64,000 nucleotides of DNA. Source: Planctomycetaceae bacterium (GTDB lineage: Bacteria; Planctomycetota; Planctomycetia; Pirellulales; Pirellulaceae). Shown here in pieces: positions 26,463-39,646 of this stretch. Location: contig JABJJO010000043.1 of the NCBI GenBank assembly GCA_018660825.1, positions 1-64,000 of the forward strand, written 5' to 3'. The notes below the pieces were generated by a model. That model had not been told where the DNA came from and ran no database searches. It was given only the letters and a program-made list of their open reading frames with translations. Within the stretch, counting starts at the first letter, position 1. Every line of letters starts with the position of its first letter. A program made the translations under genes and the position numbers.

Positions 26463-27893
26463 TTACCCGAGCAGTTTCAACATCGGTGAACCTTCGTTAA
26501 GCGTAGGGCGTTCTGGGCGGCCTTGGTGTGAGTACATCAATTTCATATTATCCAGACCGAGCAGGTAGAGAATCGTAGCATGGATGTCTTTAATATGCAT
26601 GCGATCGTCTACAGCGTGCAGGCCAAGTTCATCGGTCGTGCCGATAACTTGTCCGCCTTTAACTCCGCCGCCTGCCATGAACATCGTGAAACCGTAGGGG
26701 TTGTGGTCTCTACCGGTTCCTTTTTCACTCATTGGAGTACGGCCAAACTCTCCACCCCAAATGACGAGTGTTTCTTCAAGCAGTCCTCGTTGCTTGAGAT
26801 CTTTCAACAGACCAGCGACTGGTTTATCGGAGGCGCCGCAGTTATCAGTGTGATTGGTTTCGATATTTGTATGTGCATCCCATTTACTGCCGCAGCCGTG
26901 ATAAAGTTGTACAAAGCGAACTCCTCGCTCGACAAGCCGTCGCGCGAGTAAACAGTTTGTCCCAAATGCCTCGGTCTTCTTGTCATCCATGCCATACAGT
27001 ACTTTGGTGGCAGCCGTTTCACGTGATAAATCAACGGCCTCAGGGGCAGTTTGTTGCATCAAATACGCGAGTTCGAAGCTGCGGATACGAGCTTCCAGTT
27101 CACTTTGATCTTGCGCAAGTGGCCTGGCGTGTTGTTTGTTTAATTGTGCCAGCAAGGAATTCTTGCGGACTTGCCTTGGTGTATCAATGGATTTGTCAGG
27201 TACAAGATTTTGAATTGGCGGGTTGTTACCCGACAATGCGGTACCTTGGTAGGTCGCAGGCATAAAACCAGTACCCCAATTTCGCGCACGGTTAAAGACC
27301 TTGTTGGGGACGTCTTCAATAACGACAAAGGTAGGCAGGTTGTTGTTTTCTGTGCCGAGTCCATAGCTAACCCAACTACCCAACGATGGCCGACCGCCAC
27401 GGATGGAACACGTATTCATTTGGCAAACACCGTTGGAGTGGTTTAGTCCATTGCCGTGGCAAGATCGAATAACGGCAATGTCATCCACGCAAGTTGCAAT
27501 GTTGGGCAGCCAATCGGATACCCATGTACCGGCTTCGCCATGTTGTTTCCATTTGCGTTTGTCCGCCAACAATGGTGCATTGTATTCACCCATAGGGGTA
27601 ATGATTGGACCATAAGTGTCAGGCAGCGGTTGCCCCGCGAGTTCTCTAAGCTTGGGTTTTGGGTCGAATAGATCGAGGTGACTTGGTCCGCCTTCCATGA
27701 AAAGAAAGATGACTTGTTTAGCGCGAGCAAGGTGATGACTGACTGCGGCAGAACCAGTCGGTATTGTTTCCGACCTCACTGCTTGTTGACTCAGCATTCC
27801 TGTTAACGCGATACTACCAAACCCTAGGCCTGCTTGGGCTAACATCTCACGTCGGGAGGATCGACCGTCAAATATGCGTGGGGGTGTGTTCAT
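26463..27893 (-). CDS. DUF1501 protein, Tat-exported
   Basis: A 476-residue protein with the twin-arginine signal SSRREMLAQAGLGFGSIALTG. DUF1501 hallmarks include FLFMEGGPSHLDLFDPKP, HSNGVCQMNT, GRPSLGSWVSYGLGTENNNLP, VIWGGEFGRTPMSEKGTGRDHNPYGF and DIHATILYLLGLD. The family is related to alkaline phosphatase/sulfatase-fold proteins, but its reaction is not established. It follows the PSCyt1-DUF1549-DUF1553 gene by 37 bp, the standard planctomycete pairing, and is presumably co-expressed with it. Confidence 0.9.
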   Translation of the reverse strand: MNTPPRIFDGRSSRREMLAQAGLGFGSIALTGMLSQQAVRSETIPTGSAAVSHHLARAKQVIFLFMEGGPSHLDLFDPKPKLRELAGQPLPDTYGPIITPMGEYNAPLLADKRKWKQHGEAGTWVSDWLPNIATCVDDIAVIRSCHGNGLNHSNGVCQMNTCSIRGGRPSLGSWVSYGLGTENNNLPTFVVIEDVPNKVFNRARNWGTGFMPATYQGTALSGNNPPIQNLVPDKSIDTPRQVRKNSLLAQLNKQHARPLAQDQSELEARIRSFELAYLMQQTAPEAVDLSRETAATKVLYGMDDKKTEAFGTNCLLARRLVERGVRFVQLYHGCGSKWDAHTNIETNHTDNCGASDKPVAGLLKDLKQRGLLEETLVIWGGEFGRTPMSEKGTGRDHNPYGFTMFMAGGGVKGGQVIGTTDELGLHAVDDRMHIKDIHATILYLLGLDNMKLMYSHQGRPERPTLNEGSPMLKLLG

Positions 27894-27930: not shown

Positions 27931-30372
27931 TTATTGACTATATAGGAATTCGTTTGACGCTAGCAATACATGACAATAATCGGTCCAAGCCTCCTCTGGT
28001 GACTCAGCGTTACTGAAAAAATCGCGGGCAACTTGTTTCTCGTTGTTCGTGGCAGGCCGGCTGTATAGCTTCCAATGTATCAGATCAATGTTCTTTTCAC
28101 AGTTTTTTATGTCCGGAGGCAATGTAAGCTTGCTCAGGGCCGCGGCACGCGCAAGAACCCAAACGTTGTTCATGATCAGGAGTGTTTGCGTTGGAGTGGT
28201 GGTGGTGTTACGTTCCGGTGAACTTAGGATGCCGTCGGTTCCATCGAAGGCTAACAGAAAAGGGTGCGGGTGATTACGCATCATTTTTAGAAATGCCGAC
28301 CGACGTGGTGAGTCGACGCCTTGGCCTTCGCCGCCTAGTTGCAGATCTAATTCACCACTGACTTTGAGGATGTTGTCGCGAATTTGTTCGGCGTCAAGTC
28401 GCCGAATATTTGCCCGCCAGAGAAATTGATTGCCGACATCGAGTTGCCGCATTTCGGCTGCGTTTGGGTGGATTGCGGATTGTCGGTAGGCTTGGGATGT
28501 CACAATGAATCGATGAATCTCCTTTATGTCCCAGTTGCTTTCAATAAATGAGGCGGCTAAGAAATCGAGGAGTTCCGGATGCGTAGGACGCGTACCGAGT
28601 GTGCCGAAGTCGCTTGGCGTATCTACGATGCCATGGCCGAAGTGGTACTGCCAAATTCGATTGACCATCACACGACTGGTCAGCGGATGCCGTGGATCAG
28701 TTAGCCACTTAGCGAGCGCCGTTCGTCGTCCGGTCGTGCCAGGTTTCTCTGGAGATACGATTGCTGTTGCCGTCGGGTCGAGTAAGCTCAGTCCCCCCGG
28801 TTGCAGAGAATTACTAGTGTTGGGGATCAACGTTGGGGGAGCTGTCGTGTCAACGTCGGTAACTGAGGCGATGATTCCGAGGGGTGCTGGCATAAGGCTA
28901 TCGAAGGACTTCAAAATTTCAGTTAGTTGGTTCCATTTTTCGAGGTCGGTTTCCTTGAAATGCTTTGACCAGTCCACATCATCGACTTTCTTTTGAACTT
29001 GGCGAAATGCCAAGTACGCGATTTGTTTCTCGTAGGGCGTCCGTTCGCCATCTTCCTTGTAAAGTGTCGGGCGCACATCCAAGGGGAACATTTCTATCTG
29101 TGCTGTGGTTAGTTTTTTAATATGCTTCGCTTGCATAGAGTCGATTTGTTTACGGACGTCGGATGTCGCTTGTCGCCACTTTTCGAACTTAGTTCGATAA
29201 GCCGCCCGTTGGGAGGAGGTGCCTGCTAATTGTTCATCGAGTGGCAGTAGAGGCGCAAAAAATGCTCGCAGGCGAAAATAATCGTCTTGCAGAATCGGAT
29301 CAAATTTGTGATCGTGGCAGCGCGCACAACTCATGCCCAACCCTAAAAACGCGTCTCCGGTGACGTCGGTGATGTCGTTAAGAATAATATCCCATTGGGA
29401 TTTTGCGTCACGTTGATTGAATTCGTAAATCCAGTGTCGCAAAAAACCTGTGGCTATTTGAGCTTGTTGGTTCATCGGTTCTAACTCGTCACCAGCAAGT
29501 TGTTGTTGGATAAATTGGTCATAGGGGCGATTATGGTTGAACGAGTCAATGACATAATCGCGATATCGCCATGCTTCGTCTCTATAAGAATCAGCACTGT
29601 ACCCATCGGAATCAGCATACCGCACTAAATCAAGCCAGAACTTGGCCCAGCGGACTCCATGTTGCTCATCGTCTAAGAGTTGGTCAACGATTTGACGGTA
29701 ATGTTGGTCACTAGGATTGGCACTAAAATTTTTGACAACTTCAGGAGGCGGGATTAAACCGGTGAGGTCCAAATAAAGCCGGCGGATTAATCGGTTTGGC
29801 TGCGCAGGCGGGGCCATGTTTAAGCCGCGGTCGCGAAGAGTCGCCATGACAAATCGGTCAATGGGATGGCGGTTTTTGCCACGAACGCGGGGTAGTCTAG
29901 GTTTAATGATTTCTTGAAAAGACCAAAATTCATGGTCTTCGTCGGTAAAACGTAAAGCCAGATCTCGCGCCGGGTCGAGTTTCGTTGTTGGCCATTTAGC
30001 ACCATCACTAATCCAGTGCCGAATGTCGTCGACGATTTGTTTGGACAGCGTCATTGAGGGAGGCATTTCCAACCCGTTGTATTCAATCGCTTTGATGAGC
30101 AAGCTTTCATCGGGTTTGCCGAGGTTGATTGCAGGGCCTGAGTCGCCGCCGGTCAGGAGTGCTGCGATTGAATCGACTCGTAAGCCGCTTTCTTGCTTCT
30201 CCGAACCATGGCAAGCGTAGCAATGCCGGACTAACATCGGACGAATGTTCTCTTCGAAAAATATCGTTTGTTGGGCCGTGATTGGTGCGTCGGTTGCTTG
30301 CAACGATACTGTCGTTGACAGGGTGAACAGAGAACAAAGAATTAGAGCGAGATGAAGAGTCCGGTGGATCAT
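27931..30372 (-). CDS. PSCyt1 - DUF1549 - DUF1553 secreted cytochrome-like protein
   Basis: About 813 residues. The frame extends to 30441; the ATG at 30372 begins a signal peptide (HLALILCSLFTLSTTVSLQA). A PSCyt1 domain holds the haem motif HCYACHGSEKQESGLRVD, then DUF1549 ([47 protein letters not shown] with a second CxxCH) and DUF1553 (HPLTSRVMVNRIWQYHFG, DFGTLGTRPTHPELLD). It is predicted to be periplasmic or outer-membrane-associated. It is the first gene of a pair with DUF1501. Confidence 0.9.
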   Translation of the reverse strand: MIHRTLHLALILCSLFTLSTTVSLQATDAPITAQQTIFFEENIRPMLVRHCYACHGSEKQESGLRVDSIAALLTGGDSGPAINLGKPDESLLIKAIEYNGLEMPPSMTLSKQIVDDIRHWISDGAKWPTTKLDPARDLALRFTDEDHEFWSFQEIIKPRLPRVRGKNRHPIDRFVMATLRDRGLNMAPPAQPNRLIRRLYLDLTGLIPPPEVVKNFSANPSDQHYRQIVDQLLDDEQHGVRWAKFWLDLVRYADSDGYSADSYRDEAWRYRDYVIDSFNHNRPYDQFIQQQLAGDELEPMNQQAQIATGFLRHWIYEFNQRDAKSQWDIILNDITDVTGDAFLGLGMSCARCHDHKFDPILQDDYFRLRAFFAPLLPLDEQLAGTSSQRAAYRTKFEKWRQATSDVRKQIDSMQAKHIKKLTTAQIEMFPLDVRPTLYKEDGERTPYEKQIAYLAFRQVQKKVDDVDWSKHFKETDLEKWNQLTEILKSFDSLMPAPLGIIASVTDVDTTAPPTLIPNTSNSLQPGGLSLLDPTATAIVSPEKPGTTGRRTALAKWLTDPRHPLTSRVMVNRIWQYHFGHGIVDTPSDFGTLGTRPTHPELLDFLAASFIESNWDIKEIHRFIVTSQAYRQSAIHPNAAEMRQLDVGNQFLWRANIRRLDAEQIRDNILKVSGELDLQLGGEGQGVDSPRRSAFLKMMRNHPHPFLLAFDGTDGILSSPERNTTTTPTQTLLIMNNVWVLARAAALSKLTLPPDIKNCEKNIDLIHWKLYSRPATNNEKQVARDFFSNAESPEEAWTDYCHVLLASNEFLYSQ

Positions 30373-30608
30373 TGTTCGCGGTGGGTGGAAATAATTGAGC
30401 AAGTGAAGTTTATCTGCATATAGTATGACATATGAACGCAAACGAGGTGTACCAGCTGGTTTTATATATTGGATGATATCGGTGGCGAATTAGAGATTGG
30501 CGGCTCTCCGTTTTCGATTTGTTGATCCCTCGGTTCGATCTGACAATGCGCTGTCACAGGTAATCATTGACGCCTTGGCCGCTGACGGGTCGCGTATATC
30601 AGATGGGG

Positions 30609-32354
30609 TTATGGATCCGCACTGATTTCAGGTTTATCAGAATCGAATGACAAATTGTCTTCGGGAATTACGCCATCTCCCAGATAGATGCGAGATTCAG
30701 GATGTTCTGCGAGCCATTTTCCCCAAGTGGTGATGATATATGGGTAGTCGCGAAGGGGAGCATTCTTTGAAGAATGAGAAAACCGGATGTTGTCATAATA
30801 GAAGAACATTTCTTTTTCCATCCACCCACCGAGTCCAACGGTAAGGTAATCGCCTCGTTCCGTCGAAGTAAAGACTCGAGCACGTTCATGAATATCACAA
30901 TACGTCACGGTGATCGGTATTTCGTTGATTAAGTCATTGATCACTTTCTGTCCCAATGGTGCGAATGCGTGTACGATGTACGCACGATGCTCGTCACCTA
31001 TGCTAATTCCAATCACTTGCTCAGTTTCGGTAACGTGCGCGTCTTTAGCGGTTAATGTTACTGGAGCGATCATGCCAGGAAGCATAAATGGCGTATCGTT
31101 GGGCGCTTTTTTTCCGTTAATCAACTGGTTGCGACGTTCCATTTCCGGAATGACAATTGCAACTCGGGGCTTTTCCATAAAGAGAAACTTGCCGAGTAGG
31201 ATAACGCCGGTAACAATGATAATTATGAAGAAGCCCGCAAAATACCATGCAATGCGAGACTCAGGTTCATCGGATTCGGCAAAATTGTAATTATCATCAT
31301 CGTCGTCGTCTGAAAAAAGAGGGTTGATCTTCTTGCTAACTTCTACATCAGGCGGTGCCGGCGATGTGGAATATTCATTTGCCGTATCGAGTTCGGATTG
31401 AATCTCATTGTTTGAATTGTCAGAGGTGTCCATCTTACCTGAGGGGATCTGAAATATCGCTTCTTGCATTTCGTGAGCGGATTGAAAGCGATCTTCCTTT
31501 TTGGATTTGAGGGCCTTGCCAAGCATGGGCTTAATTTCTGGAGGTACCGAATCCAAATCAATCACACGTGGTGATTCTCCGGTGAGCATCTGATAAAACG
31601 TCGCAGCTAGGCTCCAGAGGTCACTGCGGTGATCGGTAAGTTCCGCTGCCTGCCGTTGTTCCGGCGGCATAAAGTCCAGCGTCCCGATCACTGCTCCCTC
31701 CATCGTCATGCCTGTATCCGTGTTGTCGTCCTTAGCTAATCCAAAATCTGTGAGTTTTGGTATGCCATCTCCGGTCATTAAGACATTGGCTGGCTTAATA
31801 TCACGGTGAATAATACCTGCGGCGTGTGCTTGCGCAAGTCCATCACAAAGTTGGTTGAAGATGTTAACGGCTTCGTCTAGCTCGATAGGGCCTGCTTTAC
31901 ATTTTTCCAGCAAGCTACCGCCTTGAACACATTCCATGATCAGAAAGGGGCCGTCTGTGGCGTGGCCATAGTCGTAGATCTGGACAATGTTGTTGTGATT
32001 CAACGCTGCGATTGACTTGGCCTCGGTTAGAAATCTGGCTACCGCAGTCTTGCTGCGAGTCGCCTTACCTAGAATGCGTTTAATAGCGACCTTGCGTCCA
32101 AGGCGGGTATCCGTAGCGAGGATAACCTCACCAAATCCACCTTTACCAAGCACGCCTTCTTCGGTGTAACGTTCAGAAAGATCCTCTAATTTGATTTCGT
32201 CATCAAACAGGTCGTCGAGGCTGTTGGCCGCAGAATCGCCCCCGATAGTTTCGCCGCCGCCGAGGCTCAATTCACTTGGGTTTTGTCGGGATTCGTTTTC
32301 GGGATTATCGTCGTCAAGCGTTTCATCGCCGAGGCTATCGTTAGAATCAGGCAT
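30609..32354 (-). CDS. Transmembrane Hanks-type Ser/Thr kinase with DUF3179-like extracytoplasmic domain
   Basis: A 581-residue protein. Residues 1-62 are acidic. The kinase domain spans about 64-303 with glycine loop GKGGFGEV (70-77), catalytic Lys92 (VAIK), HRDIKPAN (Asp185) and DFG (203-205), so it is predicted active. An acidic linker (DDDDD) leads to one membrane segment at about 368-393. The remaining 190 residues match the DUF3179 pattern: VIGISIGDEHRAYIVHAF, VINDLINEIPITVTYC, YLTVGLGGWMEKEMFFYYD and ITTWGKWLAEHPES. This places DUF3179 outside as the presumed sensor. It is the last gene of the five-gene FG-GAP/TPR cluster, 113 bp from the previous gene. Confidence 0.88.
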   Translation of the reverse strand: MPDSNDSLGDETLDDDNPENESRQNPSELSLGGGETIGGDSAANSLDDLFDDEIKLEDLSERYTEEGVLGKGGFGEVILATDTRLGRKVAIKRILGKATRSKTAVARFLTEAKSIAALNHNNIVQIYDYGHATDGPFLIMECVQGGSLLEKCKAGPIELDEAVNIFNQLCDGLAQAHAAGIIHRDIKPANVLMTGDGIPKLTDFGLAKDDNTDTGMTMEGAVIGTLDFMPPEQRQAAELTDHRSDLWSLAATFYQMLTGESPRVIDLDSVPPEIKPMLGKALKSKKEDRFQSAHEMQEAIFQIPSGKMDTSDNSNNEIQSELDTANEYSTSPAPPDVEVSKKINPLFSDDDDDDNYNFAESDEPESRIAWYFAGFFIIIIVTGVILLGKFLFMEKPRVAIVIPEMERRNQLINGKKAPNDTPFMLPGMIAPVTLTAKDAHVTETEQVIGISIGDEHRAYIVHAFAPLGQKVINDLINEIPITVTYCDIHERARVFTSTERGDYLTVGLGGWMEKEMFFYYDNIRFSHSSKNAPLRDYPYIITTWGKWLAEHPESRIYLGDGVIPEDNLSFDSDKPEISADP

Positions 32355-32467
32355 GGAATGTAGTCTATTTAGGTAGAAGGTTATTGGGGAAGTTTGTCAT
32401 ATTGTCAAACGAATTGAGGCTGGAAGATATTTGCTACATGACTCCGAGACAGTGGCTTCACCCGGAG

Positions 32468-34021
32468 TTATTGATTTGGTTGGTTTGCGGGGGTCGTTGT
32501 TGGATTTTGCAAAGTAGACGTTGGTGCAAAAGGGACGGTAGCGGTATTCGCGCGCGTCATTTCAACAATGATTCGTTCTAATTCGAACAGCGCCTTTTGG
32601 TTTTGAGAATCAATCGTCAGAATAGCTTGGTACCAAATAACAGCTAACTCAGGTTTACCGATCTCCTCAGCTAATTTTGCAAGTTCTAATCGCATGGCGA
32701 TGTTTGTTGGTTCACCAATAATGTCAATATTAAGTTTTGAGAATCGTTCACGTTTTGTTCTCAGTATTGTTGATCGGATGGCCAGTTCCTCGGCTTTGGC
32801 TTCATCGCCAAGGCCGCGATAAGCTTCAGACAATTTGTACATGAGTACATCGTCACTTGGGTAATAACGGAGGCCGCTGACAAATGTATCGACCGCTGTT
32901 GCGTAGGATCGATCTTGGATTTCGATTGTTCCCTTAAGCAAAATTGCTTCGTGTTGGGCGGGGTCACGAGTCAAGGCGTCGTTGAGTGCATTAAGCGCAT
33001 CTTGAACGTCACCGAGGTTGTAATGACAAGAGGCTCGTAGAGCATAGATGCGTGGTGTTACAAGAACTTGGTTTAGTTGGTCGAGTGCTTGGTTAAATTG
33101 GCGAAGTTTAATGTGAACTTCTGCCATGCTGATGATGACGGTTTCACGGAGATCACCAAAGGGATCGAGTTCTAAGTAACGCTGATAGGCGATCAGGGAA
33201 TCTTGCCATTGTTCATAATCTTGCTGCACCATGCCGATGAAGCGTAAAATTCGAGCATTGTTTGGATCGAGATCGGAAACGATTGTCGCTGAATCCATCG
33301 CTTGTTGCATATTTCCAATGTCATAATAAATGGACGCCATCAGTTGATAGGCAGGCACCAATTTGCGATTAGCTTGATCACTCACTTTGATAGCGGCATC
33401 CAAAGCTTGCAGCGATCCGCCGTATTGTTTCTGTTTAAACTGAAGTTCACCGACGATGTAATAATGGTAGGTTTTGATCAATGGATCATCGGAATCTTGC
33501 AGTGTTTTTAGGTGGTTTGCTGCAGCAGTCAGGTCCTCAACTGTTAACGCGATAAACGCGTTGAGGACAGCGACCCGATCGTCCTGTTGGGGTAACATGA
33601 GTAGGGCATTACGGTGGGTGATGACATCCGGTGTATGCCGTTGATGCAAGGCATCGAGTGCTGCCAGAAAGTGTTGTTCCGAAGTTAATTCGCGAGCACT
33701 GTAAAACGTCATTCCTTGCGTACGACGGTCCAACGTCATGACACTTAAAAAGATGGCGCCGATGATGATAATAACGAGAGCAAAAACTGTTTTTTTACCC
33801 GCGATGCCTCCAGAGGTAACCGTTGGTTCCGTTTTTGATGCTTCGTCAGTGGGAGGCGAATCGAGGATCCGTTGGTCCCTATCCTGCCGCAGCGAAGTGA
33901 AGGCTGAGGTTGCCGAGGTATCAGAAGATATGTCGGAAAACAGAGAATCCACTGATTCCACGGTATTTTCAGTGTTATCGTTATTTTCGATTTCGTCGTT
34001 TTCGTGTTGTTGAGACATCAT
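32468..34021 (-). CDS. Single-pass membrane TPR protein
   Basis: A 517-residue protein. The N-terminal 75 residues are acidic and Ser/Thr-rich (DSLFSDISSDTSATSAF), which could make a kinase target (inference). One membrane segment follows (KTVFALVIIIIGAIFLSVM, about 76-94). The rest is at least six tetratricopeptide repeats, for example YYIVGELQFKQKQYGGSLQALDAAI and FIGMVQQDYEQWQDSLIAYQRYLELDP. With no cleavable signal, the TPR domain is predicted to face the periplasm. It lies between the CRTAC1 lipoprotein and the kinase. Confidence 0.83.
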   Translation of the reverse strand: MMSQQHENDEIENNDNTENTVESVDSLFSDISSDTSATSAFTSLRQDRDQRILDSPPTDEASKTEPTVTSGGIAGKKTVFALVIIIIGAIFLSVMTLDRRTQGMTFYSARELTSEQHFLAALDALHQRHTPDVITHRNALLMLPQQDDRVAVLNAFIALTVEDLTAAANHLKTLQDSDDPLIKTYHYYIVGELQFKQKQYGGSLQALDAAIKVSDQANRKLVPAYQLMASIYYDIGNMQQAMDSATIVSDLDPNNARILRFIGMVQQDYEQWQDSLIAYQRYLELDPFGDLRETVIISMAEVHIKLRQFNQALDQLNQVLVTPRIYALRASCHYNLGDVQDALNALNDALTRDPAQHEAILLKGTIEIQDRSYATAVDTFVSGLRYYPSDDVLMYKLSEAYRGLGDEAKAEELAIRSTILRTKRERFSKLNIDIIGEPTNIAMRLELAKLAEEIGKPELAVIWYQAILTIDSQNQKALFELERIIVEMTRANTATVPFAPTSTLQNPTTTPANQPNQ

Positions 34022-34083
34022 TGGTTAATGGGGTAAAGGATAAGTTAAATGATTTGTCGCGAAATAATAAAAACTGCTGTTGT

Positions 34084-35892
34084 TCATTGAGTCGTCGTGA
34101 CAACGGTAGTGATGGGAGTTGGTTGAATAACGACGAGAGGTTTATCGGTGGGTACATCCGTGATTTCTTGGATATGCCCATTTGGCCATTTGATACTTAG
34201 ATGATCAATCGTGGCGTCACTTGGCAATGCCCAATGCAAGCATTTGTCATTTTGTGATAAATAACTTGCTCCACCTTTGGTTACCCGTAGAAGTTTTCCA
34301 ATGGAGCAATGCAAAGTTATACTGCAACCGATGGCATCTCGATTGTTTTGTGTGCCGATCAGTTTGACGCGGATGTTGTTACCTGTTTGCTCGGTTTGAT
34401 TTTCAATAATCGCCGCTGGTTCAACGTTATTGGAAAACACAATGTCAGCATCTCCGTCACCATCGAGATCTCCCATGGCAAGTCCACGCCCTGAGTGTTG
34501 TGTATCCATATAACCATGGTTGTCGAATCGTTTGCGAACGAATTTGCGGTAGTTGGATGGTTTGTTGATTTCGTTCATCAATAACAGAGGCATTTGTAAC
34601 AACCGTCCAGAACGTGGATAGTTGATGACGTGCCCATTTGACACAATTAAGTCTTCGTCGCCGTCATAATCAAAATCGTAAAACGAAGTACCAAAACCGA
34701 CGAATAAACCGCCTAGTGATGTAACTCCAGTGCGGTCTGAGACGTAGGTGAACAGGGTTCCACCATCATTGCGGTACAGGGCAAAAGCTTCTTGTTCGAA
34801 GTTGGCCACCCAAATATCCGGTCGGCCATCAAGGTTGTAGTCGCCGACATCAATTCCCATACTGCCATTGGAATTACCTATCCCGTCAAAAGCGACGCTC
34901 GAAAGAGTTGCTAGTTCTTTGAATTCACCATTGCCTTGATTGACATACAGGAAATTTGCAACGGTGTCGTTTGCGACATAAATGTCAAGATCACCATCGA
35001 GATCAAAATCGACGGACATGACGCCGAGTCCCTTGCCTTTGTCGGTTAAACCCGCTTCGGTCGTGGCGTCATGAAATGTGCCATCTCCGTTGCTGTAGTA
35101 GATGATATCTGGTAGCGGTTCATATAGTTTAGGCGGACAAATTTCCCGTTGTCCAGGATTGGGCCCGTCGCAAAATGGATGATTGGCAAATGACCAATTA
35201 ACATAATTGCAAACATACAAATCGAGATTTCCATCGCCGTTGTAGTCTCCCCAGGCCGCACTACTACTCCATTTGTTGTTGTCCAACCCAGCGGGTTCGT
35301 GGATTTCTAAAAACGTACCATCACCCTGGTTATGAAAGAGTTTTAGGCTATTCCACCCGGTGAGGACGAAATCGGGAAAGCCGTCGTTATCAAAGTCAGC
35401 GACTTGGCAGCCATGAGTATATAGGGAAGCATCGTTTGTAAAAGCCTCAGCGGTAATCGCCGTGAACTGTGCCATTCCATTGTTGCTGTATAACATTCCC
35501 GGATGACCTGTGATGACCTGCTTCTGGTATTTGCCACCACCAGGGAAGAAAATGTCAACGGTACCATTCATGTCATAGTCCAGCATGCCCACTCCGCCAC
35601 CGAGCGATTCGAGAATGGAATTGTTTCCAGCTTCATGCCCATTTTGGTATGTGAAATCGACACCCGCTTCGTTGGTAATGTCCAGCAATACCACATTTTT
35701 TCCAACGTCACGTGAACCTAATTGCACATCTTCACTTAATTCGGTCAAGGAATTAGTGGATCCAGGGTCATCGATTGTGATGTCATCCAAGTTCGATAAT
35801 TGATCCAGCGGATTGTCGTCCGGGCATCCGGTGAGGCTCAGCGTCAGGACGGCGGCGGCTGCAAAAAAATAGTTTGTGAATTTGTGTTTCAT
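34084..35892 (-). CDS. CRTAC1-type FG-GAP (VCBS) lipoprotein with ASPIC/UnbV domain
   Basis: A 602-residue protein. Lipobox LTGC at 20-23 after a short signal peptide predicts a lipoprotein. FG-GAP/VCBS repeats with Ca2+-binding DxDxDGxxD loops recur: DYDMNGTVDIFFPG, DFDNDGFPDFVL, DYNGDGNLDLYVC, DFDLDGDLDIYVA and DLDGDGDADIVFS, consistent with a beta-propeller. The C-terminal ASPIC/UnbV domain begins near 515 (NNIRVKLIGTQNNRDAIGCSI) and ends in LSIKWPNGHIQEI. It is probably surface or periplasmic. It is 62 bp upstream of one TPR gene and 45 bp downstream of another. Confidence 0.87.
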   Translation of the reverse strand: MKHKFTNYFFAAAAVLTLSLTGCPDDNPLDQLSNLDDITIDDPGSTNSLTELSEDVQLGSRDVGKNVVLLDITNEAGVDFTYQNGHEAGNNSILESLGGGVGMLDYDMNGTVDIFFPGGGKYQKQVITGHPGMLYSNNGMAQFTAITAEAFTNDASLYTHGCQVADFDNDGFPDFVLTGWNSLKLFHNQGDGTFLEIHEPAGLDNNKWSSSAAWGDYNGDGNLDLYVCNYVNWSFANHPFCDGPNPGQREICPPKLYEPLPDIIYYSNGDGTFHDATTEAGLTDKGKGLGVMSVDFDLDGDLDIYVANDTVANFLYVNQGNGEFKELATLSSVAFDGIGNSNGSMGIDVGDYNLDGRPDIWVANFEQEAFALYRNDGGTLFTYVSDRTGVTSLGGLFVGFGTSFYDFDYDGDEDLIVSNGHVINYPRSGRLLQMPLLLMNEINKPSNYRKFVRKRFDNHGYMDTQHSGRGLAMGDLDGDGDADIVFSNNVEPAAIIENQTEQTGNNIRVKLIGTQNNRDAIGCSITLHCSIGKLLRVTKGGASYLSQNDKCLHWALPSDATIDHLSIKWPNGHIQEITDVPTDKPLVVIQPTPITTVVTTTQ

Positions 35893-35937
35893 GGCGTTGT
35901 TTGGTTGGTAGAGAAGGCTAGTGTATGCTCGGCGAAA

Positions 35938-37416
35938 TTAGTTAGTGGATGGTGCCGAGGCAGTGTTTTGAGGTTGGTTCTGTTGTGGTAGAATTGGATT
36001 CTTGGAAGTGGAAGGAGTGCCAGTTGTTGCAGTGCCATCGTCTGCTGATTTACTAGCTTGTGCTTTGACGAAAGCGATTTCACGCTCAAATTTTACAATT
36101 TGGCTTTGCAGTGCGGGGTTTGCTTCGACTTTCTCTCGATAGTACTTCAGCATGAATTCTAATGTCGGCAAGTACTTTGAATTGAGTAGGTAAGCCGTCC
36201 TCATCCAAACCATAGCGTCTTGTTCGGATCCGTATCTCCAGAAAATCCGTGCAACCGTCAAGCGATCGTTAATGCTTTCGGGTCCACTACCAATGGTTTC
36301 AACGATTTGATTGGCTGTGGCAAGATTGTTTTTAATATCTTCAACCGCATCAAAATGCGCTTGTGCTTCTTCAAGTCGCCCTTCGCCTCGTAGAGCCATA
36401 GCGAGAGATTGGCGTGGGTCTGTTAATAGCCCGTCGTTGTCTACAATTGGTTGCAATAGTGGAATAGCTTCTGCGTACCGTCTGTCAACTACAAGAATCC
36501 GACCTAGTTCGTTAGAGGCAGCATAATGTTTGGGCGTATCTTGCAACACGATACGTAGAATTTTTTCTGCTTTGTTGGGTTGACCGAGCATGCGATAGCA
36601 ATGTGCTTGGGCAACGTAGGAATCAATCATTAGCAACGGGTCTTCCTCTGCAAGCTTTAAATATTTCAGAGCTCGTTCTGTATTTTTAAGGTCGAGTAGG
36701 ACGTCCGCAATCTCCATGGCCGCGGCGTAGTATTTGGGATCGACCTTTAGGGCGTTTAGATAGCATTGTTCGGCTTTCTTGTTAACGTTCATTGATTTGT
36801 GAATAATGCCTTCTAAATAGTGAGGCCGTGCATCGCCGGGAAAATCCTGTTGCCAGGCGCGAACGAGCTGTATTGCCGAATCGTTTAATTGAAATTGGAT
36901 AAACCCGATAATATAGGCCTCGCAGATTTCACGTTCGTCGCCACGAGGGTCTGCTAAAAGTTTGGAAAGATGCGGTCGTGCCTTATCAAGATCAGCGGAT
37001 TGTGCGGATGCCAAGATGCGTTCGCGTGCGATCATCTCGGGATCGTAACCCGCGTCTTGGGCACGGTCTAAATACTCGCTCATCTGACGGTAATTACCTT
37101 TGCGACGTTCAAGGCGAGCCGTCATAAAGTGAATTTCACTCTTTTTGATAAAGGGGATTTTTTGTGCAAATGTAATCCACTCTTGAGCGAGTTCAAGTTT
37201 GTGTTCCAGTAGATTCGCTTTTGCTTTAGTTAGGGGAACTGTTGTGGCATAGTATGATCCTCCCACCAATAGAGCGGCTAACGCCACGGCAATCGTAACT
37301 AAGCGTGTCGCTGGTTTTGTGTTGACCGTAGGTGCTGAAGTGTTTGTAGCAGCGGTTGTTTGTTGGTCATTGCTCGATGAAACATCGGCCTGATCGTGCG
37401 GGGTTTCAGAACCCAT
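35938..37416 (-). CDS. Single-pass membrane TPR protein
   Basis: The open frame reaches a TTG at 37452, but the ATG at 37416 is preferred, giving about 492 residues. The N-terminal 35 residues are polar and Ser/Thr-rich. A membrane segment follows (RLVTIAVALAALLVGGSYYA), then extended TPR/helical-hairpin repeats (EQCYLNALKVDPKYYAAAMEIADVLLDLKNTERAL, HYAASNELGRILVVDRRYAEAI), and a Thr/Pro/Gln-rich tail. The architecture is the same as the other TPR protein in the cluster, but the sequence is clearly divergent. Confidence 0.8.
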   Translation of the reverse strand: MGSETPHDQADVSSSNDQQTTAATNTSAPTVNTKPATRLVTIAVALAALLVGGSYYATTVPLTKAKANLLEHKLELAQEWITFAQKIPFIKKSEIHFMTARLERRKGNYRQMSEYLDRAQDAGYDPEMIARERILASAQSADLDKARPHLSKLLADPRGDEREICEAYIIGFIQFQLNDSAIQLVRAWQQDFPGDARPHYLEGIIHKSMNVNKKAEQCYLNALKVDPKYYAAAMEIADVLLDLKNTERALKYLKLAEEDPLLMIDSYVAQAHCYRMLGQPNKAEKILRIVLQDTPKHYAASNELGRILVVDRRYAEAIPLLQPIVDNDGLLTDPRQSLAMALRGEGRLEEAQAHFDAVEDIKNNLATANQIVETIGSGPESINDRLTVARIFWRYGSEQDAMVWMRTAYLLNSKYLPTLEFMLKYYREKVEANPALQSQIVKFEREIAFVKAQASKSADDGTATTGTPSTSKNPILPQQNQPQNTASAPSTN

Positions 37417-37661
37417 TGATTTATTCCGACTTGAGTAAAGGTTGTGTGACAAAGATGTTCGTTTAAATGAATGTCACGGATGTGAACGGTTGATCGAGTT
37501 CACTTAAAACAAGTGTGGACATTCAATTCTATGAGAGAGTTTTCTTGCGTCTTTGTAAGTGGGGAACCCCAGCGCAAGAAGCATAGTCTCATATCAATAA
37601 TACGCTATCTATAAGAGTAGATACGAATGTGATTGTGATTTTGGTCGATTGCAAGTGTCGA

Positions 37662-39332
37662 TTAGGGATGATTAATCGAATTATTCCACCAAATCGATAC
37701 ATCTGTACGAGGCGTAACGAATTTATCAGCAAATTGACCGGTGGCAATGTCGATATCACCATCACCATCAAAGTCGCCAACGGTAACGGTTGTATGCTGT
37801 GCGTTGTCCATTTCCAGTGATCGTGCTGTGAATTCTCCTGTTTTGGTTTGTTCTAGCCAAATCAAAGAGTCCCGACTTTGTTGGACGCCAGTTTCCAGTA
37901 TCTCAGAGCTAATCAAGCTGCAGCAGACGATATCATCGTCACCATCGTTATCAAAATCGGCGGCGACAGCGCGATGAATACCTGGCATCGCGCGTAAAAC
38001 ATGCGGACTCCACTCTCCCTCACCCTGGTTTTCAATCCAATGCGCTCCTTGATAGGGGACGATGTAAAAACTGTCGAATACGTCTCCATTGGTGAATAGA
38101 ATATCAAGGTCGCCATCGTGGTCGAGGTCATGTAGGTCGATTCCCGTTGATCCCCAGACGGGGTTATCGGCAGAGAAAATTTTCTGACGACGAAAAGTAC
38201 CATCACCTCGATTAAGGAATAGTTCTATCGACTCGTGCTCTTGACTAATCAACGATGCGAAATCCAAGTGGCCATCGCCATTGAAATCTGCGATTGGAAT
38301 ATGAATAACGCCATGACGATCGTCGATGATTATCTTTTCGTATTGGGGGATTCCGTTCTCAATGCCAGTGTGCAAAAGTAGCCAGACATGGCCCGACAGT
38401 CGCCAACCAAATTCGGCAACCAATAAGTCTTGTTGACCGTCTTGGTTAAAATCGCCAGCTTGAACGTCTGTTACGCGACCCAGTCCGCCCATCAATACGG
38501 TTGTCTCAAACTTATCATTGGAATCCGGAGATTCACGTAGCCAAATAACTTGGCCGTTAGTGTGATCTTCCGGTAGGAAACTTCCCAGGTCAGCCACTAA
38601 GTAATCGGCAACGCCATCATTGTCTAAGTCTGTCAATGTGGTATTGCTGGGGTTGGGAACTAGAGCGCGTCGGTCAAATACCATTGTTTGACCATCAAAA
38701 TGAGCTTCTTGAACAATGCCCACTCGCATATCACAGAGCATTAGTGTGGAACGATTTAATAGATGAGTGTTGGCTTGATCGTACCATTGAACGTTGGCAG
38801 TGCCAGAAGGGACATGATGTGGTTGGCCCGGGGAGATTGCGGCCATTGCATGATGCGTTGGTTTGAATTCAATGGGGCTAGGATCATTTTCTGTGGCCAG
38901 CGGCGGCGGTGGAATTGACTTTGGTGCATGTCGTCGATAGTAGTCGATGACTTCACTGCGTCTTGGAAGCGTCAGGTCAGTGCGACCGGATTCTTCGTAG
39001 AGTTTAAAGCCCAGCTCAACTTCGGCGAACCAACCTTCGCGGGGGATGGCTGCGGGAGGAGGCGTTGCGTGACAGTCACCACAGAAATGGTCAATCTCTG
39101 CGAGAACTCGAGCGTCAGTGTTTGCGGGATTGTTGTTGAGTTGATTGTTTGCTGATTGATCATCGGTTATTTGATCGATGCCGCTTTTTTCATCATTGCA
39201 GCCGGTGATTGTTGCGAGGGTAATGATCAGTAACGATGCGGTGGCAATTGTCTTCACGGAGAGCGACTTGTTGGCGACCAATCGCAGTTGCGGGGTTGTG
39301 TGGAATCTCTTGGTGTTTGCGGAGCGAGACAT
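37662..39332 (-). CDS. FG-GAP lipoprotein with N-terminal CxxCH haem motif
   Basis: A 556-residue protein. A long basic N-terminus precedes a hydrophobic stretch and lipobox ITGC (Cys45), so a lipoprotein is predicted; an internal alternative start would shorten the n-region. A mono-haem motif HFCGDCHA lies at about 83-89 (Cys84, Cys87, His88), followed by PPPAAIPREGW. The rest is FG-GAP/VCBS repeats with Ca2+ loops (DLDNDGVADYLVA, DFNGDGHLDFASL, DLDHDGDLDILFT, DFDGDGDIDIATG). It is the first gene of the cluster. Fusing a haem module to a propeller suggests electron transfer or a redox-sensing surface protein (inference). Confidence 0.85.
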   Translation of the reverse strand: MSRSANTKRFHTTPQLRLVANKSLSVKTIATASLLIITLATITGCNDEKSGIDQITDDQSANNQLNNNPANTDARVLAEIDHFCGDCHATPPPAAIPREGWFAEVELGFKLYEESGRTDLTLPRRSEVIDYYRRHAPKSIPPPPLATENDPSPIEFKPTHHAMAAISPGQPHHVPSGTANVQWYDQANTHLLNRSTLMLCDMRVGIVQEAHFDGQTMVFDRRALVPNPSNTTLTDLDNDGVADYLVADLGSFLPEDHTNGQVIWLRESPDSNDKFETTVLMGGLGRVTDVQAGDFNQDGQQDLLVAEFGWRLSGHVWLLLHTGIENGIPQYEKIIIDDRHGVIHIPIADFNGDGHLDFASLISQEHESIELFLNRGDGTFRRQKIFSADNPVWGSTGIDLHDLDHDGDLDILFTNGDVFDSFYIVPYQGAHWIENQGEGEWSPHVLRAMPGIHRAVAADFDNDGDDDIVCCSLISSEILETGVQQSRDSLIWLEQTKTGEFTARSLEMDNAQHTTVTVGDFDGDGDIDIATGQFADKFVTPRTDVSIWWNNSINHP

Positions 39333-39531: not shown

Positions 39532-39569
39532 AAAAAAAAAACCTCTCGAACCAAAGTTGGCTCGAGAGG
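39532..39569 (-). terminator. Strong minus-strand intrinsic terminator
   Basis: Arms 39542-39553 and 39558-39569 form a 12-bp stem with one G-U pair and a 4-nt loop. On the minus strand it is followed by ten consecutive T (39541-39532). The plus strand has no T-run after the stem, so orientation is clear. No coding gene lies upstream on the minus strand within this gap. Confidence 0.88.
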
Positions 39570-39612
39570 CGCAATTACTCTTGCCCTAAAAAAATTAGGA
39601 AACAATAGCTCT
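39532..39612 (-). ncRNA. Candidate small RNA or attenuated leader RNA (about 80 nt)
   Basis: The predicted transcript starts near 39612 from the promoter at 39619-39646 and ends in the T-tract at 39532-39541. In RNA sense it holds a small hairpin with arms CCUAA/UUAGG around U5, a possible GCAA/UUGC hairpin, then the 12-bp terminator stem. No start codon with a ribosome site is seen. It may be a free sRNA, or the leader of the minus-strand cluster beginning at 39332, 200 bp further on. No known RNA family was recognised. Confidence 0.5.
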
Positions 39613-39618
39613 GCCTTT

Positions 39619-39646
39619 AATATATATCTAAATAGGTTGATGTCAA
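39619..39646 (-). promoter_or_regulatory. Consensus-like sigma-70 promoter, minus strand
   Basis: TTGACA (39646 to 39641, perfect) and TATATT (39624 to 39619, 5 of 6) are separated by 16 bp on the minus strand. It is among the best promoter matches I saw in the window, and it points at the terminator 50-80 bp away. Confidence 0.6.

Follow-up and report, generated by a model that had tools for sequence, protein, structure and literature searches.

This study concerns five adjacent genes, here called A to E, in a 64,000-base window (the whole stretch of DNA analysed: the first 64,000 bases of the 69,845-base contig JABJJO010000043.1) from a Planctomycetaceae bacterium, whose metagenome-assembled genome (MAG; GCA_018660825.1, 4.94 Mb, 221 contigs) is referred to as G000. 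Judged from sequence comparison with its relatives, the serine/threonine kinase encoded by gene E is a newcomer in an envelope operon, inserted in frame at the start of a DUF3179 gene in this species. The explanation that fits best, with a probability of about 0.7, is that of an old envelope operon, possibly with a redox function, on which a new transmembrane kinase was built. The five open reading frames all lie on the minus strand (30609-39332), as do the elements within them (TPR, tetratricopeptide repeat; aa, amino acids):

30609 to 32354, minus strand: E, chimeric gene for serine/threonine kinase, transmembrane segment and DUF3179 (Pfam Pkinase and DUF3179; hydropathy; orthologue comparison)
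31426 to 32463, minus strand: inserted segment of 1,038 bp, kinase 5′ region plus kinase codons, replacing 70 bp of the ancestral junction between D and the kinase-free gene E′ (alignment of G000 with G007)
32355 to 32463, minus strand: 5′ region accompanying the kinase; all of it resembles the sequence upstream of copy C9, and part of it that upstream of several further copies (alignments)
30687 to 31079, minus strand: DUF3179 domain, aa 426-556, with invariant TYC (C = aa 486) (Pfam; alignment)
32468 to 34021, minus strand: D, membrane-anchored TPR protein of the type found downstream of CRTAC1 genes (Pfam TPR; neighbourhoods; tree)
34084 to 35892, minus strand: C, CRTAC1/ASPIC-UnbV FG-GAP propeller lipoprotein (Pfam FG-GAP and UnbV_ASPIC; match to 9etn)
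35938 to 37452, minus strand: B, membrane-anchored TPR protein of the type found upstream of CRTAC1 genes (Pfam TPR; neighbourhoods; tree)
37662 to 39332, minus strand: A, FG-GAP beta-propeller lipoprotein with one CxxCH (Pfam FG-GAP and sequence; fold model)
39069 to 39083, minus strand: CGDCH haem-c attachment motif of A, aa 84-88 (sequence; conserved)

The fifth gene in eight relatives (G001, G003, G004, G005, G006, G007, G008 and G012, the last belonging to another genus) encodes a protein of 269-308 aa with a transmembrane segment and DUF3179 from which the kinase is absent, and a ninth complete orthologue, at locus L188, also lacks it. In total, the kinase was found in none of the nine (seven from the genus, G012 and one G012-like), and the earlier note's view of a dedicated sensor kinase has to give way to one of insertion in the G000 lineage. 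When G000 was aligned with G007, a sister species of the same genus, the DNA matched until four bases past the stop codon of D and resumed within the first DUF3179 codons; in the assembled sequences the junction spans 1,038 bp in G000 compared with 70 bp in G007. Ahead of the kinase start lie approximately 110 bp similar to the sequence upstream of another kinase copy, C9, and partly similar to that upstream of several more, indicating that the kinase brought its own 5′ region.

The kinase carries the motifs of a Hanks-type serine/threonine kinase (GKGGFGEV at 70, AIKR at 90, HRDIKPANV at 183 and DFGLAK at 203) and matches Pfam Pkinase at 154.6 bits (cut-off 31.7). It does not belong to the PASTA/PknB receptor kinases (NF033483), for which it scored 248 bits against a cut-off of 450, the best stretch covering positions 5-207 of a profile of 563. 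The ratio of nonsynonymous to synonymous substitution (dN/dS) for the kinase half of E was 0.08-0.15 against seven of the nine copies compared, those with a defined dS. Change in the DUF3179 half relative to G007 has been mainly silent (dS 0.50, dN 0.10).

Fifteen places in G000, E included, hold this kinase, the others with 52-82% identity to E; five of the 15 run to a contig end and one has an internal stop. The copy with the stop is C162a (G000:C162, L136 5628-9140), interrupted between HRD and DFG. Gene E has the family's head, MPDHEDSLGGETLDG, followed by the kinase, with 72-82% identity to the nine closest other places and a clade support of 100/100. The kinase tree was built from 12 of the 15 places and 21 rows of other genera, fragments and the most diverged rows being left out; nine of the G000 copies, E and C9 among them, formed the 100/100 clade and C68, C57b and C214 a second one. 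A double zinc ribbon after the kinase, examined as a further trait of the family, was absent from E and C9 (Pfam DZR); it was matched in C13, C68 and C162b, and a zinc-ribbon-like stretch was seen by eye in most kinase rows from other genera. The head MP[DN]SNDSLG is common to E and C9, which have more upstream sequence in common as well; the trees nevertheless do not join them.

Among the matches listed, kinase identity in the eight relatives (seven of the genus and G012) reached up to 46%, and at E <= 1e-20 there were 40 kinase matches in G000 against 10-24 in each of the eight. With no more than nine candidates per genome considered, a match at E <= 1e-55 occurred in 25 of 241 family genomes, G000 included, and in none of eight same-genus genomes. 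A phylum-wide draw gave 13 of 392 genomes at E <= 1e-60, again counting G000, the others having 38-44% identity. Lineage-specific expansions of serine/threonine kinases are described for the Planctomycetota in a report on 'Ca. Uabimicrobium amorphum' (PMC11032199), so kinase expansion as such is not new. The expansion described there resembles the present one in its many species-specific kinase copies, varied accessory domains and many membrane proteins; it was, however, inferred from kinase-domain trees, whereas G000 shows single insertions with empty sites in the sister genome, and the fusion partners in G000 (DUF3179, DUF5989 and a 169-aa protein) are resident genes.

Two further fusions, at C9 and C68, had their junctions compared, as did E, with G007 only. 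About 1.2 kb lies at C9 between DUF5989 and a gene that we take to be SxtJ-like, and the flanks meet at one position in G007; the fused protein consists of Pkinase and DUF5989. DUF5989-like sequence was present in an open frame of 71-108 aa in seven of the nine relatives searched and was not found in the other two, G003 and G004. At C68, about 1.4 kb has taken the place of 10 bp across the start codon of the gene for the 169-aa protein. In G007 this protein occurs by itself (78% identity); more diverged forms are encoded in open frames of 181-206 aa in another five of the eight relatives searched, with no match in G001 and G002. All three fusions are in frame, the presumed anchoring membrane segment being recognised as a hydropathy peak for E and by eye for the C9 and C68 targets. 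As regards the traits of a mobile element (fixed ends, target duplication or a transposase), the left ends of the inserted segments differ between E, C9 and C68. It may be, at rather less than even odds, that a kinase segment with its own 5′ region repeatedly inserts at the starts of resident membrane-protein genes, making transmembrane sensor kinases in one step.

Another family member, C13 (G000, L139 4403-8884, minus strand), ends in 353 aa that are a second copy of the resident gene C56 (84% identity, dS 0.38). A homologue was found in all eight relatives searched (58-83% identity), in open frames of 501-675 aa compared with 1,493 in C13, which is kept out of the empty-site cases. The C13-type sequence of G007 used for dating is only partial. 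The tail of C57a was considered as a captured resident gene and rejected, as it occurs only in C57 itself, in one of nine genomes searched.

The fusions could instead be neutral by-products of the amplification, giving the kinase a membrane anchor without sensing and leaving the work of the operon unchanged or damaged. An amplified family in which one copy, C162a, has been broken by a stop is in keeping with this, but both halves of E are open, the dN/dS of the kinase is far below 1, the changes in the DUF3179 half are mainly silent, and three in-frame fusions at gene starts would be hard to obtain without selection. This alternative is considered unlikely, although it retains some weight.

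The operon that received the kinase is conserved among relatives. The genes lie close together (B-C 45 bp, C-D 62 bp, D-E 113 bp), the A-B gap being 209 bp, or 245 bp from an internal ATG of B; the earlier note's gaps of 113 bp or less save one of about 245 bp hold if B starts at that ATG, and its five adjacent co-oriented genes and their domains agree with Pfam. One hydropathy peak each was observed in B (from aa 51), D (79), E (375) and the signal region of A (24); C has no peak above 1.6, and its lipobox was read by eye. The conserved-neighbourhood check that the note called for showed A-B-C-D kept in all eight other genomes of the genus and in G012, although in G003 the set is divided between two contigs and B occupies two frames. 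In all these loci E′ comes after D, except in that of G002, where the contig stops past D. Two further genes usually come next:

27931 to 30441, minus strand: F, PSCyt1-PSCyt2-PSD1 protein, next gene of the conserved neighbourhood (Pfam; relatives' loci)
26463 to 27893, minus strand: G, DUF1501 protein, next gene of the conserved neighbourhood (Pfam; relatives' loci)

Both were found after E′ in seven of the eight loci reaching that far (G001, G003, G004, G005, G006, G008 and G012). In G007 (L054 10370-12409), the place of PSCyt/PSD1, immediately past E′, is taken by a protein of 679 aa that matches TPR and multihaem cytochrome. A further genome scan returned 11 loci. Nine contain A-B-C-D-E′, though in one of these A is truncated and B occupies two frames; a tenth breaks off inside E′, and the last, from G045 (another genus), has B, a DUF1559 gene, a 210-aa gene, DUF3179, C and D in that order. 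The scan overlaps the genomes already named, only L188, close to G012, being a new complete case. The records carrying the locus are MAGs labelled Planctomycetaceae, Pirellulaceae, Pirellulales or Rhodopirellula sp., and isolate names such as ALOHA suggest that these relatives are mostly marine.

The full set with DUF3179 occurs only in the genus, G012 and the G012-like L188, and other genera hold partial sets: B-C-D-A in G023, C-D-A in G038 and B..DUF3179-C-D in G045. Gene A precedes B in the genus, follows D in G023 and G038, and stands beside C on the opposite strand in G015. The conserved unit has B-C-D as its core and A and DUF3179 as its partners, rather than being a doubled module of propeller and TPR protein. 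Neither the A-B-C-D-E′ operon nor fusions of a kinase with DUF3179 or DUF5989 were found described in titles and abstract openings of the literature, a search outside which most subscription journals lie.

The association of TPR genes with CRTAC1 propellers extends well beyond the genus. CRTAC1-type genes were defined by a length of 500-720 aa and a hidden Markov model score of at least 250 (n=50), and a TPR neighbour by location on the same strand within 400 bp and at least 20 bits with the B or D profile. Thirty-three of the 50 genes have such a neighbour; without five same-genus genes the figure is 28 of 45, compared with 11 of 292 control genes from those loci (Fisher p = 1.6e-20, paralogues not being independent). 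Amongst the 22 highest-scoring C genes, the upstream neighbour was of the B type in 11 and of the D type in none, while the downstream neighbour was of the D type in eight and of the B type in none; in the remainder it was another gene, absent or on the other strand. The TPR tree also sets the B type apart from the D type (a repeat alignment with several long branches). In the two long CRTAC1 relatives scanned, TPR and FG-GAP/UnbV are joined in one chain.

Protein C itself combines FG-GAP repeats with a C-terminal UnbV_ASPIC domain (48.3 bits, cut-off 23.4), as expected of the CRTAC1/UnbV type. Like human CRTAC1 (9etn), which it matches over residues 249-575 at E 2.2e-16, it has UnbV, but it is bacterial, carries the lipobox and lies beside TPR genes, some of its relatives having TPRs in the same chain. 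Used as a query, C scored 21 bits against gene A of the window compared with 215-477 bits against its own three CRTAC1 paralogues.

These results bear on the earlier proposal of a five-gene signalling assembly made of two duplicated propeller and TPR modules with a dedicated sensor kinase. The genes are adjacent and co-oriented, and at the repeat level the two TPR proteins resemble each other, as do the two propellers; against this stand the missing kinase in all nine other complete orthologues, the separate B and D types on fixed sides of C in other genera, and the low score of A with C. The proposal as a whole is now very improbable. Derivation of A-B and C-D from one ancient pair was rejected on the strength of the TPR tree, the scores and the arrangement of the genes in other genera: A and C share only generic FG-GAP similarity, B-type genes lie upstream of C and D-type genes downstream, and A moves about. 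A second pair of the C-D type was observed at G000:C11 (L048 3237-6378), with a CRTAC1 protein of 48% identity and a D-type TPR protein, and such a pair stands in all six genus genomes whose second locus was compared; the actual duplication is that of C-D. The Ser/Thr-rich N-termini of B and D, formerly suggested as kinase targets, are present in G007 too, at a locus free of the kinase, and so give no evidence for substrates. As for a surface-binding and signalling assembly, the surface part is plausible given the adjacency of TPR and propeller genes, the natural TPR-CRTAC1 fusions and the DUF3179 gene beside C in G045; the dedicated kinase is the part that falls.

Protein A may be considered a putative c-type haem protein, as CxxCH occurs in the window (CGDCH) and in 19 of 19 homologues. 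Twelve of the 19 adjoin a TPR or CRTAC1 gene on either strand, and in the three such loci scanned the neighbour was a TPR and cytochrome c protein. Based on a fold model from nine sequences, the best Foldseek match was aldos-2-ulose dehydratase (4a7k; E 8.2e-12, template modelling score 0.51), the beta-propeller nearest to the predicted fold; the match to PF22301 is below threshold (19.4 vs 27 bits), and unlike the dehydratase A carries a haem-c motif and has no cupin match in Pfam. A sequence profile placed human CRTAC1 first (E 2.8e-5) and the dehydratase second (E 0.02). Upstream of A, at 39541-39646 on the minus strand, a promoter-like site (TTGACA-16-TATATT) is followed at once by a strong terminator-like hairpin, approximately 210 bp before the gene:

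39541 to 39570, minus strand: terminator-like hairpin, downstream of the promoter-like site (39619-39646) and ahead of A (also in G007, where the stem has a paired change)

The stem is thus preserved in the sister species, and no equivalent was found in five other genus genomes by a simple T-run search. Site and hairpin could possibly form an attenuator or a small RNA.

The DUF3179 domain of E, recognised in the earlier note as DUF3179-like, was confirmed by Pfam (PF11376, 47.3 bits, gathering cut-off 27). This family is listed among selenoprotein families with a UxxC/T motif in two reports (PMC9312934, PMC13188914). The invariant TYC, whose Cys is the first of the motif and is kept in all ten aligned rows, is read as the Cys/Sec site, and the second position is Thr (CxxT) only in the relative L081 (G045); in contrast to the family as listed, the window protein has His in that position, is membrane-anchored and is fused to a kinase. 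No match in the PDB at E <= 0.001 was obtained for the AlphaFold model of the domain; a weak match to 3c0d (putative nitrite reductase small subunit, Rieske-like, probability 0.35) was not used as evidence. A redox role for the operon is suggested by the CxxCH of A, the PSCyt1 match of F, the cytochrome partners of A and the UxxC/T motif reported for DUF3179, and the TPR and multihaem protein after E′ in G007 was counted towards the same theme.

Under the preferred explanation, the ancestral unit would have been an operon for envelope proteins, A-B-C-D-E′, with PSCyt/PSD1 and DUF1501 genes usually next in line. It would have encoded two propeller lipoproteins (one with a haem-c motif), a membrane DUF3179 protein and two membrane TPR proteins, the genes for the latter lying on either side of the CRTAC1 propeller gene. 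The propellers may be docked by the TPR proteins, in an assembly at the cell surface to which haem groups and the cysteine of DUF3179 may lend a redox function. In this species a serine/threonine kinase of the amplified family, with its own 5′ region, lies in frame at the start of the DUF3179 gene, where the relatives have no kinase. The product is predicted to be a transmembrane kinase with the kinase in the cytoplasm and the resident DUF3179 outside, through which the state of DUF3179 could be read out in the cytoplasm; like fusions arose separately at the DUF5989 gene and the gene for the 169-aa membrane protein.

Several observations weigh against this explanation. E and C9 stand at a dS of at least 1.05, or beyond measure, from every one of the nine kinase copies compared. 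As none of these nine is close at silent sites, none could be identified as the donor of the inserted copy, and amplification may have come before or after insertion. A and C are not strictly paired, an A match (E <= 1e-20) occurring in 28 of 80 relatives and a C match (E <= 1e-60) in 50 of 80, and seven of the 19 A homologues lack TPR and CRTAC1 neighbours alike. For the models of the propeller and of DUF3179, the mean predicted local distance difference test score (pLDDT) is 65 and 67, respectively. The second redox position of DUF3179 is lost in the window (CDIH, with no CxxC/T), so that a redox role is at most putative. With G000-G007 orthologues at a dS of 0.30-0.60 in nine comparisons, the fusions are read as younger than the split of the two species and the inserted copies as coming from older lineages of the family. 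Any one of three causes would account for this: the direct sources were lost, contigs are missing, or the copies came from a relative outside the sample.

Misassembly or a binning chimera might also have joined kinase copies to unrelated genes, the genome being a MAG in which five of the 15 kinase places run to contig ends; since E, C9 and C68 lie inside contigs, with both flanks matching the sister genome and all joins in frame, this is hardly credible. Least probable of all is an ancestral kinase-DUF3179 gene stripped of its kinase in every relative: the greater silent divergence of the kinase copies than of G000 from G007 and the related kinases in other genera of the family speak for it, but it needs clean, start-restoring losses in nine genomes, two of them outside the genus, and like losses at C9 and C68, where the G007 junctions are intact.

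Elsewhere in the window, the contig start (1-108, plus strand) matched the Bag-1 internal ribosome entry site family of Rfam (RF00222, 53.5 bits, gathering cut-off 37). This is odd for a bacterium and possibly reflects chance or a foreign contig end.

The analysis corrects a natural misreading of the kinase as part of the operon and defines the FG-GAP/TPR/DUF3179 envelope operon as a conserved target for experiments. The acquisition of outside domains by receptor kinases is usually inferred from old proteins; the three fusions described here can be compared with unfused genes in the sister genome, and the sensor role of the resident protein can therefore be put to the test. If kinase segments do insert repeatedly at the starts of such genes, the birth of receptor kinases would be visible in G000, with the empty sites still present in its sister.

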